From Clostridia bacterium (GTDB lineage Bacteria > Bacillota > Clostridia > Christensenellales > Aristaeellaceae): a stretch of DNA of 64,000 bases. This document shows, piece by piece, positions 5,012-10,124 of this stretch. Under the pieces are notes generated by a model. The model did not search any database, was not told the origin of the DNA, and saw nothing but the letters and a program-made list of their open reading frames with translations. Positions within the stretch are counted from its first letter, which is position 1. Every line of letters starts with the position of its first letter. Both the position numbers and the translations under genes were made by a program. The stretch lies in contig JAFQOD010000047.1 of the NCBI GenBank assembly GCA_017395685.1, forward strand, positions 1 to 64,000. The letters run 5' to 3'.

Positions 5012-5716
5012 TCAGGGAGAGGATAAGGAAAAATATTCGATGATGCCGTCGTGAATGGCCTTGGCGATCCGGTATTGATATTCGGGGGAGAGCAGCATGG
5101 CCTCTTCCGCGCTGTTGGAAAGAAAGCCGCATTCAATCAGTACCGATGGGATATTCAGCGACAGCATGAAATAATCCCCGGAAAGGGCGGATCGCTCCTT
5201 GGAGGGATTCAGCCCCTGGATCAGCTGCTCCTGCATCACCCCTGCCAGTAGCCGGCTTTTTTCCTGCCCCTTTCTGTAGAATACCTGGGGCCCGGATTCG
5301 CTCCGATCCCGATATTCATTCATGTGGATGCTGATGAGCATTTCGGCCTTGCCGGATGCGGCCTTCTCCAGCCGGGCGGTCAGATCCTGCCGCTTGTTCT
5401 GGCTGTATTCCATATCGCTTTCCCGGCTCATGATCACCTGGGCGCCGCTTGCCAGAAGCAGCTTCTGCAATTTTTCAGTTACCTGCAAATTGATTTCCTT
5501 TTCCCATTTTCCGGAATCTTTTGCGCGGGCGCCCCCGTCAATGCCCCCGTGCCCGGCGTCAAGAAAAAGGATACGGCCGGATAAGGGCCCAGCGGCTTCA
5601 TGGACGGGCCGTGCTCTTTGGGCAGGCTTGGCAGGCCGGGCCGGGATGGCCAGCCCTATGGCCAGCAGCAGGCATGCTGCCGCAAAGGCGGCCCATTCCT
5701 TCCATTTCTTTTTCAT
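5012..5716 (-). CDS. cwlD: N-acetylmuramoyl-L-alanine amidase, CwlD-like
   Basis: A 234-residue protein with an N-terminal membrane or signal segment (about residues 8-25) and a single Amidase_3 domain. The zinc ligands are visible: His in FLDAGHGGIDGG, Glu in KEINLQ, His in SIHMNEY, with the catalytic Glu in LIECGFLSN. Length and single-domain layout match CwlD, which prepares muramic-delta-lactam in spore cortex peptidoglycan with PdaA. A vegetative amidase with the same fold is possible, but the upstream sigma-E-like promoter favours sporulation. It diverges from the DnaA-box region. Confidence 0.85.
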   Translation of the reverse strand: MKKKWKEWAAFAAACLLLAIGLAIPARPAKPAQRARPVHEAAGPLSGRILFLDAGHGGIDGGARAKDSGKWEKEINLQVTEKLQKLLLASGAQVIMSRESDMEYSQNKRQDLTARLEKAASGKAEMLISIHMNEYRDRSESGPQVFYRKGQEKSRLLAGVMQEQLIQGLNPSKERSALSGDYFMLSLNIPSVLIECGFLSNSAEEAMLLSPEYQYRIAKAIHDGIIEYFSLSSP

Positions 5717-5737
5717 GTGGTCACCCCCCGATGAAAT

Positions 5738-5772
5738 GAAATATGCATATTTTTTAAAGAATATGCTGTCAA
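5738..5772 (-). promoter_or_regulatory. cwlD: Possible sigma-E/sigma-A promoter for cwlD
   Basis: Read on the minus strand, GCATATT (5766-5760) fits the sigma-E -35 consensus. Fourteen bases later comes CATATTTC (5745-5738), a partial match to CATACANT. A TTGACA (5772-5767) just upstream could serve sigma-A but has only a weak TATGCA 17 bases on. This is inference from consensus only. Confidence 0.4.
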
Positions 5773-5804
5773 GTCACAAAAGTTTGAACTTTTCAGAAAT
5801 TTGC

Positions 5805-6119
5805 TTATTCACAAATTATCCACCATCCATTTATTTCTTATTCATGCATTTATACAGTATATTCATGCATATCCCGTGGAAAAAGTGAGGATTTGCGTCC
5901 ATCCGCCCTGAATATCCGGTATAGGGCGTTAGGAATTATGCGGAAATGATGAATGATGAAACTTTCCACATTATCCACAGAGTTATCCACAGAAAAAACG
6001 ATCAAAACCCGCGATAAATCAAGGTTTTTCAGAGAGAATGTGGAAAACTTAACCCAAGCCGGAAGTTATCCACAGAGAAAAAGTGAATAAATTGAAAGTT
6101 ATCCACAAAGTTATCCACA
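5805..6119. promoter_or_regulatory. DnaA-box cluster, candidate replication origin
   Basis: Five exact copies of the DnaA box TTATCCACA lie on the plus strand at 5971, 5983, 6066, 6099 and 6111. Near matches TTATTCACA (5805) and TTATCCACC (5816) lie to the left. The 5717-6350 interval is non-coding, AT-rich and divergent, with all genes to its left on the minus strand and the next two on plus. The two close pairs, spaced 12 bases start to start, suit cooperative DnaA binding. dnaA and dnaN are not nearby, so an origin, a DnaA-titrating site or a regulatory site are all possible. The rest of the interval shows no gene. Confidence 0.65.
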
Positions 6120-6285
6120 GGATATCCCCAAGATAGAATGAAAAGAATATAATCCAATCGTTACAGAATTGTAATAATTCCCTACTTGACAAAGAATTTA
6201 TGCATTATTTGCATATAAAAAAGGATGGAAAAAGCGGGAAGAATGGGGCCGGATCAGTCGTTGATTGGAATGATAGGATTTTTGG

Positions 6286-6315
6286 ATGACAAGCGGCTCT
6301 TTTCTGTGCTATAAT
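6286..6315 (+). promoter_or_regulatory. Promoter for the 6351 membrane protein and dus
   Basis: A perfect TATAAT at 6310-6315 has a poor -35 (ATGACA, 6286-6291, 18-base spacer). It lies 35 bases before the GTG start at 6351. Confidence 0.45.
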
Positions 6316-6350
6316 GGGCAGGCAAGGGCTGGAAGGAAGGAGGGCGGCAG

Positions 6351-6887
6351 GTGAAGTATCTGAGACGGTTGATCTGGTATATTTCTTCCCGGCTGCTGAT
6401 TTTGTGCTGTGTGCTGGGGCTGATGATCATGGCCTTTTATTTTTCCATGAACGCCACCAACATTTATATTATTTTGAAGGACGGCATGGCCAAACGGGCC
6501 CAGGTGATCATGATGGGAGAGGAAGCGGAACTGACCAATTATTTCTCCCAGGCCTGTCTGGATCGCGATCACCAGCTGACAGAGGCCCTGAACGGCCAAT
6601 CGGCTTACCAGAATTATTACAATATTACTGGGTTTGATCACCGCATTTCCCTGGATTCCTTCTGGTGCTGGCCCTGGGATGATAATGCGCAGGTGGTGAT
6701 CACGGAAAGAATTCCCGCCATTGACGGGAAGCTGCGCTCTTCCGCCCGGGAAGCGGCCACTGCCGCAGGGCTGAGCCTTTCTTCCCCAAAATGGCAGGCC
6801 ACCCAGTATACTGTATTGCTGGGCCGGGAAAATGGGCAATGGCATGTAAAAAATCTGACGGCCACCCGGGTGTTTCCCGGGGAATAG
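6351..6887 (+). CDS. Small membrane-anchored protein of unknown function
   Basis: 178 residues, starting at GTG 6351 behind a GGAAGGAGG site. A basic N-terminus (KYLRRLIWY) precedes one strongly hydrophobic segment (about residues 12-34), which would leave the remaining 140 residues outside the membrane. The soluble part has no motif I recognise; it is rich in aromatic residues around FDHRISLDSFWCWPWDD and ends with a beta-rich stretch. It lies 12 bases before dus and probably shares its transcript, next to the DnaA-box region. Confidence 0.75.
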   Translation: MKYLRRLIWYISSRLLILCCVLGLMIMAFYFSMNATNIYIILKDGMAKRAQVIMMGEEAELTNYFSQACLDRDHQLTEALNGQSAYQNYYNITGFDHRISLDSFWCWPWDDNAQVVITERIPAIDGKLRSSAREAATAAGLSLSSPKWQATQYTVLLGRENGQWHVKNLTATRVFPGE

Positions 6888-7974: not shown

Positions 7975-10074
7975 TTACTTCAGATAACTGGAAACGACGT
8001 AGCCGACCTGACCGTCCACGCTGACTTTGGTGTACAGGCCATGTTCGCTGACTACTTTCACCACTGTGCCGTTGGCCAGTTCAGCAATGATGTTGCTCTT
8101 GTTGGCGGTGCTGGTGCTGGTACGGAGGTTGACAAAGGAGCTCTTGGCATTGGCTATCGTCTTGAAGACAGAGCCGGAAGGCGCAGACTGCTGATTGTCA
8201 TTGTTGTCATCACCGTCTTCTTCGCTGCCGGGCTGTTCGCTGTCAGGCTGTTCGCTTTCAGCTTCTACTTTCTTCAGTTTGCTGGCACCCATATAGCCTT
8301 CCTTGCCGTCCACAGATACCTTGCACCAGCCGTCAGCGGTGCTGAGTACGGTAACCTTGGTGCCGTTGGGATAGGAGCCCAGAATATCGGAAGTGGTGTT
8401 GGGTTCGCTGCGCAGACGCAGCTTGGCGGTGCTGCCGGTGTTTACCTCGGCCTGATAGGATACGGTGCTACCGGGCTGTTCGCCTTCTTCGGGCTGTTCA
8501 GCATCAGCAGTTGCGGTTTCCAGATAAGAGGCTACTACATACCCCTGATTGCCGCCGGCAATTACCAGGGCCCAGCCGTTGGCAGTGGCATAAACCTTTA
8601 CTTCGGCGCCGTCATTGAGGAACTTGATCAGGTTGTTGGATTTCTTTTCGGGGGTGGAGCGGAGGGCCAGCTTGCCGCCCTTTACCTTCATCAGCTTATA
8701 TTCGCCGGGAAGAGAAGGGGCTTCGGGCTGTTCGGTTTCCTCTCCGTCGGGCTGATCTTCTTCGGTTTCCACCTTTTCCAGATAGGAAGATACCATAAAG
8801 CCGACCTGGCCGTCAACGGCAACCTGAGCCCAGCCGTTGGCAGTGGCGTATACCTTTACTTCCGTGCCAGTATTATAGAAGCAGATGACATTGTTGGATT
8901 TCTTCACGGGAGCGGTACGGAAAGCCAGCTTGCCGCCCTTTACTTTCATCAGGGTATATTCGCCGGGAAGGGCAGGGGCTTCGGGCTGTTCATTTTCGTC
9001 TTCCTCGGGCTGATCTTCTTCGGCCTGCACCTTTTCCAGGAAGGAGGTCATCATATAGCCGACCTGGCCGTCAACGGCAACCTGAGCCCAGCCGTTGGCA
9101 GTGGCGTATACCTTTACTTCGGTACCGGTATTGTAGAAGCAGATGACATTGTTGGATTTCTTTTCAGGGGTGGAGCGGAAGGCCAGCTTGCCGCCCTTTA
9201 CCTTCATCAGGGTATATTCGGAAGGAAGGGAGGGCGCAGGGGCCTGTTCACCGTCTTCACCTTCGGCGCCTTCGTTTTCAGTACCTTCGCCTTCAGAATC
9301 TTCAGCAGTAACAGCTTCCAAGGCAGAAGTGAGCATATAAACAACCTTGCCGTCCGCATAGACGATGGACCAGCCGTTGCTGTTGTTACGGGTGATGAGA
9401 ACTTCCTTTCCGGCGTCATAGGTGGCGACCACGGAAGCGCTGGAGCGGGGCTCGGAGTACGCATTGGTGCCGTCTTCCTTTACCTTGGCGGCAGTGCCGG
9501 TGGGGGCGGGAGGAGTGGTGTCGGTTCCATCGTCGGGTGTATCGGTGCCTTCACCGGCACCGGGAGCATCGGCGCCTTCATCTTCGCTGGGATTGGTGGC
9601 GGTCAAATAAGTGTAGAAAGAGAAGCCTTCCTTGCCATCGGCGGAGATGCAGGCCCAGCCGTCTTCCACATAATATACCAGCACCTGGGTGCCGTTGGGC
9701 AGTTCCTCAATCAGGGCGCCGTTAGGGGCTTCACGGAAATTGAGACCGGAGGATTTGCCGGTTTCCACCCACATGGTGGTGGGATTGGGATTCTTTTTGG
9801 TCAGATAAGAAGTATAAATGAAGCCGGTCTTTTCATCATAGGTGACTTCGGCCCAGCCGTTTTCAATCTCGATAACGGTAACGGCGGCATCATCAGGCAC
9901 CTGGGTGATGATGGTGCTGGTCTGGGTATTGGCTTCGGAGCGCATATTCACATAATTTTTTGCCACTACGTACATCGTGGTGCCGCTTTCAGCATGAACT
10001 GCGGCGGGCAGGATTGTGGCGACGCACAAAACCAGCGTGCATGCCAGGCAAAGAAGCTTCCGGAACTGTTTCAT
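7975..10074 (-). CDS. Secreted protein with eight bacterial SH3 repeats
   Basis: 699 residues from ATG 10074, which has a GGAGG site five bases upstream; an upstream in-frame extension lacks one. A signal peptide (residues 1 to about 29, ending VHAES) leads to eight SH3b domains of about 60 residues, each with the N-(M/L/F)R-S and D-G-W pattern. Acidic, Pro/Thr/Glu-rich linkers join them. Repeats 4-6 are almost identical. SH3b domains usually bind peptidoglycan or its cross-bridge; no catalytic domain follows, so a wall-binding or adhesive role is inferred. Confidence 0.88.
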   Translation of the reverse strand: MKQFRKLLCLACTLVLCVATILPAAVHAESGTTMYVVAKNYVNMRSEANTQTSTIITQVPDDAAVTVIEIENGWAEVTYDEKTGFIYTSYLTKKNPNPTTMWVETGKSSGLNFREAPNGALIEELPNGTQVLVYYVEDGWACISADGKEGFSFYTYLTATNPSEDEGADAPGAGEGTDTPDDGTDTTPPAPTGTAAKVKEDGTNAYSEPRSSASVVATYDAGKEVLITRNNSNGWSIVYADGKVVYMLTSALEAVTAEDSEGEGTENEGAEGEDGEQAPAPSLPSEYTLMKVKGGKLAFRSTPEKKSNNVICFYNTGTEVKVYATANGWAQVAVDGQVGYMMTSFLEKVQAEEDQPEEDENEQPEAPALPGEYTLMKVKGGKLAFRTAPVKKSNNVICFYNTGTEVKVYATANGWAQVAVDGQVGFMVSSYLEKVETEEDQPDGEETEQPEAPSLPGEYKLMKVKGGKLALRSTPEKKSNNLIKFLNDGAEVKVYATANGWALVIAGGNQGYVVASYLETATADAEQPEEGEQPGSTVSYQAEVNTGSTAKLRLRSEPNTTSDILGSYPNGTKVTVLSTADGWCKVSVDGKEGYMGASKLKKVEAESEQPDSEQPGSEEDGDDNNDNQQSAPSGSVFKTIANAKSSFVNLRTSTSTANKSNIIAELANGTVVKVVSEHGLYTKVSVDGQVGYVVSSYLK
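8518..9220 (-). repeat. 258-bp in-gene tandem repeat encoding SH3b units 4-6
   Basis: The CAGCCGTTGGCAGTGGC block recurs at 8573, 8831 and 9089, exactly 258 bases (86 codons) apart, with near-identical sequence around each copy. The third copy lacks the full linker. The high nucleotide identity points to recent duplication or gene conversion. Confidence 0.85.
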
Positions 10075-10124
10075 AATTTGGCCTCCTATGTAAATATAGT
10101 GATAGTGAAGCAATTTACGGCAAC

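Follow-up and report, generated by a model that had tools for sequence, protein, structure and literature searches.

Upstream of a cwlD-like amidase gene, a conserved array of DnaA boxes occupies an intergenic gap and, judged from its sequence, is probably a region through which bound DnaA controls cwlD and which is distinct from oriC. The array lies in the window, i.e. the whole 64-kb stretch of DNA analyzed here, which is the first part of a contig of 112,668 bases (C43) in a 2.83-Mb genome of 79 contigs. Most of what is known of the lineage comes from metagenome assemblies.

A dense DnaA-box array between divergent genes

The features of the gap and its surroundings are listed below by window position.

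5012 to 5716, minus strand: cwlD-like N-acetylmuramoyl-L-alanine amidase gene (Amidase_3; closest NCBIfam model is spore CwlD, below its trusted cut-off)
5717 to 6350, no strand: intergenic candidate control region with the DnaA-box array
5762 to 5773, minus strand: conserved CTTGACAGCATA, a -35-like TTGACA overlapping GCATA and reading towards cwlD (TGTCAAG in 24 of 27 genus loci)
5778 to 5793, no strand: conserved palindrome AAAAGTTTGAACTTTT, putative operator (at most two substitutions in 19 of 27 genus loci)
5805 to 5813, plus strand: near DnaA box TTATTCACA
5816 to 5824, plus strand: proximal near DnaA box TTATCCACC (most relatives have a perfect box at about the same distance from cwlD)
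5971 to 5979, plus strand: perfect DnaA box, first of a pair 3 bp apart (12-bp register)
5983 to 5991, plus strand: perfect DnaA box, second of the first pair
6039 to 6047, minus strand: inverted near box TTTTCCACA, 56 bp from the first pair (a perfect inverted box in most relatives)
6066 to 6074, plus strand: perfect DnaA box, 27 bp past the inverted box
6099 to 6107, plus strand: perfect DnaA box, first of the second pair (3 bp apart)
6111 to 6119, plus strand: perfect DnaA box, second of the second pair
6161 to 6191, plus strand: right edge of the conserved block, a TTACA-N4-TGTAA inverted repeat followed by cTTGACA
6286 to 6315, plus strand: sigma-70-like promoter ATGACA-N18-TATAAT (11/12) for the right-hand gene
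6351 to 6887, plus strand: small membrane protein gene, 178 aa (kept in 113 of 120 family genomes)

The five perfect copies of the box TTATCCACA (5971, 5983, 6066, 6099 and 6111) and the two near matches (5805 and 5816) reported in the initial annotation were all found at those positions. That list was correct in every site but had overlooked the inverted near box at 6039 on the minus strand, which is part of the array. Box affinity was inferred from the consensus match alone. The sequence TTATNCACA occurs six times in the window, every copy inside the gap, against 1.0 expected from shuffles. The description of the gap as AT-rich, gene-free and divergent also holds: its G+C content is 38% compared to 55-56% around it, a search for short genes between 5717 and 6350 gave no convincing ORF, and the genes on both sides are transcribed divergently. 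No Sda-like gene was recognized in the gap, and a search of it against Rfam returned a single match, below threshold.

In the 2.83-Mb genome, 45 perfect copies of TTATCCACA were counted, compared to four of the reversed-pattern control. Perfect boxes at most 500 bp apart are present at only three sites, namely the cwlD gap (five), upstream of dnaN (three) and upstream of dnaA (two). The cwlD-gap cluster is the densest of the three, and the Poisson probability of five perfect boxes in 634 bp is 9e-13, which bears out the earlier remark that such tightness is not expected by chance. Nothing beyond the general possibility speaks for chance clustering or for a functionless inherited sequence. With P about 1e-12 and box conservation far above that of the flanking sequence in 27 genomes, this explanation has a negligible probability.

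The product of the cwlD gene contains an Amidase_3 domain. Its best NCBIfam model is TIGR02883 (CwlD), with 179 bits against a trusted cut-off of 221.55; by this score below the equivalog cut-off, the amidase is CwlD-like.

Conservation of the array with cwlD

The initial annotation had made its reading depend on conservation of the boxes in relatives. Each of the 27 genus genomes with a cwlD match (the own genome included) has three to six perfect boxes ahead of this gene, with fixed spacings of 12, 56, 27 and about 34 bp. The order within the genus starts with a proximal box about 80-170 bp from cwlD, followed by the pair in 12-bp register, the inverted box 56 bp further, the next box after another 27 bp, and then one or two more. 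The same-strand pair in 12-bp register is kept in 28 of 32 loci. Across the 27 genus loci, conservation amounts to 93% in the box columns and 57% in the other columns (permutation P < 2e-4). On this alignment, the box cluster is real and under selection.

In the family as a whole, cwlD was found in 17 of the 50 genera. Most of the cwlD loci examined in other genera have upstream boxes, often with the 12-bp pair, while few or no perfect boxes occur in the cwlD-bearing relatives L357-L359 and L376. In other families of the order, 12 of 20 loci carry one or more perfect boxes ahead of the cwlD relative; the 12-bp pair is frequent there, about 200-260 bp upstream. Among 66 named loci from the genome scan, arrays are present throughout L116-L121 (close relatives, among them Candidatus Ventricola intestinavium), and nearly all cwlD loci of Paenibacillus, Bacillus and other Clostridia are without arrays. 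As a separate observation, two further perfect boxes of G077, 53 bp apart, form a pair outside the cwlD, dnaN and dnaA regions (C3:2,968,740-2,968,801, L405).

The other neighbor of the array, the small membrane gene, encodes a protein without Pfam or NCBIfam match and precedes dusB in the window. (Further along, at 7975-10113 and on the strand opposite to dusB, lies a gene for a protein with about seven bacterial SH3 repeats.) A control region that serves mainly the small gene and dusB, with cwlD incidental, would agree with the position of the array between both genes and with the conserved TTGACA motif that faces right. However, the right-hand neighbor varies while the boxes stay. In 11 of the 27 genus loci, a few of which are truncated by contig ends, no small gene was found to the right of the array, which still stands with cwlD; in G017 and G024 the small gene is demonstrably on a different contig. 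Conversely, of the 30 small-gene loci examined, the 27 that are not beside cwlD contain no perfect box, and an assignment of the boxes to the small gene was thus rejected. The predicted promoter of the right-hand gene is its own and lies 167 bp past the last box, which also counts for control of cwlD. Control of the small gene is hence quite improbable, and by gene neighborhood the array is linked to cwlD rather than to its other neighbor.

Further conserved elements accompany the boxes. The palindrome AAAAGTTTGAACTTTT sits between the -35-like motif of cwlD and the proximal box. The GCATA in CTTGACAGCATA pairs in some relatives with a second GCATA (5742-5746 in the window) exactly 20 bp off, and TATG-N16-TATG is present in 10 of the 27 genus loci. 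The spacing of the two GCATA elements may point to a sporulation sigma factor. At the other end, the right-edge motif is recognizable in most relatives, mostly even where the right-hand gene differs.

Location of the replication origin

The initial annotation had also considered that the array is a chromosomal replication origin displaced from dnaA. Dense boxes with a fixed geometry in an AT-rich gap would fit such a role. It was found, however, that a complete origin lies elsewhere. In the own genome, dnaN is on contig C52 and dnaA on contig C19. The region upstream of dnaN reads TTATCCACA TTTTCCCCAGGG CTACTACTACTA AATATATATATATAA (G000:C52, L034:4799-6435), that is, a DnaA box, GC-rich DNA, the CTACTACTACTA trios and an AT-rich stretch, which is the layout of a basal unwinding system (BUS). 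The trio consensus 3'-GAT-5' and the model of a box plus trios have been described (PMC6669920). Of the dnaN loci examined, about half have runs of four to five CTA triplets; variants such as CTAATACTACTACT, which score 2 under a strict count, are present in several more, and a few have no trio run (e.g. L312 and L381). Within the genus, most dnaN loci have CTA runs. None of the cwlD gaps examined contains a CTA trio run, in agreement with the earlier failure to find a convincing DnaA-trio there.

The distribution of parS points the same way. In 13 of 17 genomes, perfect parS sites and dnaN are on one contig (C52 in the own genome); in the remaining four (G001, G002, G006 and G019), the parS sites are on a third contig. 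In none of the 17 genomes are they on the cwlD contig (G002 has no cwlD match).

GC skew was computed on stretches of genome. In G141, a single contig of 3.26 Mb, the skew turns from negative to positive at 1.65-1.68 Mb, the site of dnaN-recF and a box cluster, and dnaA lies 1.2 Mb from dnaN. In the 3.97-Mb contig of G077, the skew has a positive sign between about 60 kb and 2.0 Mb and a negative sign between 2.25 and 3.96 Mb. With dnaN at 64 kb and dnaA at 16 kb (about 46 kb between them), this pattern places the origin near both genes. The cwlD gene of G077 and its two boxes are far from there, at 2.83 Mb, with a skew of -0.093 and -0.082 on the two sides, inside one replichore.

Within the genus, contig skew is weak and mixed. 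The own contig reaches just 6 kb on one side of the array, and third-position skew corrected for gene direction is noisy. On the dnaN contig, the skew is V-shaped in G021, G020 and the own genome, but not in G012 or G028. On the cwlD contig, its sign is the same on both sides of the array in G001, G014 and G021, and it is flat in G028; it is V-shaped in G012, where the minimum lies no more than about 3 kb from the array, as an origin at cwlD would have it. The proposed skew check thus had a divided outcome: the minimum is near dnaN in G141 and G077, G012 fits cwlD, and the one-sided skew of some contigs is consistent with an origin at the array.

Because of the trios, parS and the two near-complete relatives, oriC is very probably upstream of dnaN and not at the cwlD array, and an origin function of the array itself is very improbable. 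The earlier suspicion of an oriC away from dnaA proved right for this lineage: oriC stayed with dnaN while dnaA moved. The dnaA gene could be located as proposed; it has two perfect boxes upstream compared to five at cwlD.

Some further observations were made in these regions. The origin region of G141 (C1:1,670,700-1,672,200, L294) lies upstream of dnaN and contains DnaA-trios. On C19 of the own genome (L033:8921-12951), dnaA adjoins soj/parA, parB and recR, apart from the parS on the dnaN contig. In G018 (C55; L325 and L327), an in-frame TGA or a frameshift interrupts dnaN, possibly an assembly error. Near oriC of the own genome, a 1001-aa protein with many peptidoglycan-binding repeats is encoded (C52, L034:9310-12315); it matches the SleB spore-lysis model through repeated stretches and may not be a true SleB.

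Proposed DnaA control of cwlD

Three readings had been offered at the outset (a displaced origin, a DnaA-titrating or reactivation locus, and a replication-linked switch for cwlD). The first is not supported. The switch has the best support, since it is cwlD that the array follows and not its other neighbor. Control of cwlD by DnaA is most likely also since DnaA binds close pairs of boxes and controls sda and other genes. The DnaA of E. coli prefers box pairs 2-3 bp apart (PMC11317965), and in B. subtilis sda is switched on by DnaA, with further genes, ywlC and vpr among them, seemingly repressed by it (PMC4447404). DnaA control outside the origin is thus already known for a few targets. None of the papers searched joins cwlD with 'DnaA box'.

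In the proposed mechanism, DnaA, probably in its ATP form, would bind cooperatively to the tandem pairs 3 bp apart. The DnaA on these pairs would then join that on the inverted box and the proximal box, so that a single nucleoprotein complex forms about 90-400 bp ahead of the cwlD start. Transcription of cwlD would thereby be tied to DnaA activity and hence to the replication state. Occupancy of the boxes by DnaA, the sign of its effect on cwlD and the phase in which it would act (sporulation or growth) are predictions from the sequence.

The B. subtilis sda region is similar in that eight DnaA sites lie upstream of a sporulation-related gene, away from oriC, where DnaA acts as transcription factor (PMC4447404). 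Here, however, the target is a CwlD-like amidase instead of Sda, and DnaA control is predicted. Two further systems outside the origin are known (PMC5295017): the multi-box clusters of B. subtilis, which differ from the present array in their host genes, whereas the array tracks one gene across an order; and datA of E. coli, with five boxes away from oriC. Compared to datA and DARS, the array stands at a promoter region and follows cwlD, and IHF sites are not shown here. An oriC with a BUS likewise has DnaA boxes in an AT-rich intergenic gap, but the array is without DnaA-trios, and parS and skew point to dnaN.

The main rival is a DnaA-titration or DnaA-recycling locus of the datA, DARS or B. 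subtilis cluster type, with cwlD as mere host gene. The array is the strongest box cluster in the genome, has a fixed geometry and lies outside oriC. Deletion of six non-origin clusters leads to early initiation in B. subtilis, and titration is inferred for these clusters and proposed for E. coli datA with its five boxes (PMC5295017); DARS1, DARS2 and datA reportedly make up a large fraction of the titration power in E. coli (PMC12371093). Such a locus needs no particular gene, yet the array keeps with cwlD when the other neighbor changes and is absent beside the small gene where cwlD is not adjacent. In addition, G141, which has no cwlD match, also has no comparable box cluster outside its origin region, and conserved promoter-like motifs lie between the array and cwlD. 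Titration alone is therefore rather unlikely, although it could coexist with control of cwlD.

Several points count against DnaA control of cwlD. The shift in initiation timing upon removal of box clusters in B. subtilis is one, and linkage to a gene does not by itself make a box cluster its regulator. The distal part of the array is 250-400 bp from cwlD, beyond most activator sites. The relatives with few or no boxes (L357-L359 and L376; eight of the 20 order-level loci) and the amidase score below the CwlD cut-off weigh in the same direction.

Implications

DnaA control of cwlD would add a peptidoglycan amidase to the DnaA targets, across an order of mostly uncultured gut Clostridia. We give roughly even chances to the broader proposal that this link is old and order-wide, with DnaA directly controlling a CwlD-type amidase via a fixed-geometry multi-box complex, in a lineage where dnaA has also left oriC. 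An oriC beside dnaN, with dnaA up to 1.2 Mb away, cautions that neither the densest box cluster nor dnaA is a safe guide to an origin. The conserved array at cwlD offers a clear test of a tie between replication and wall remodelling or sporulation; if the proposal is true, wall chemistry (of the spore cortex or in cell separation) would be coupled to the replication state.
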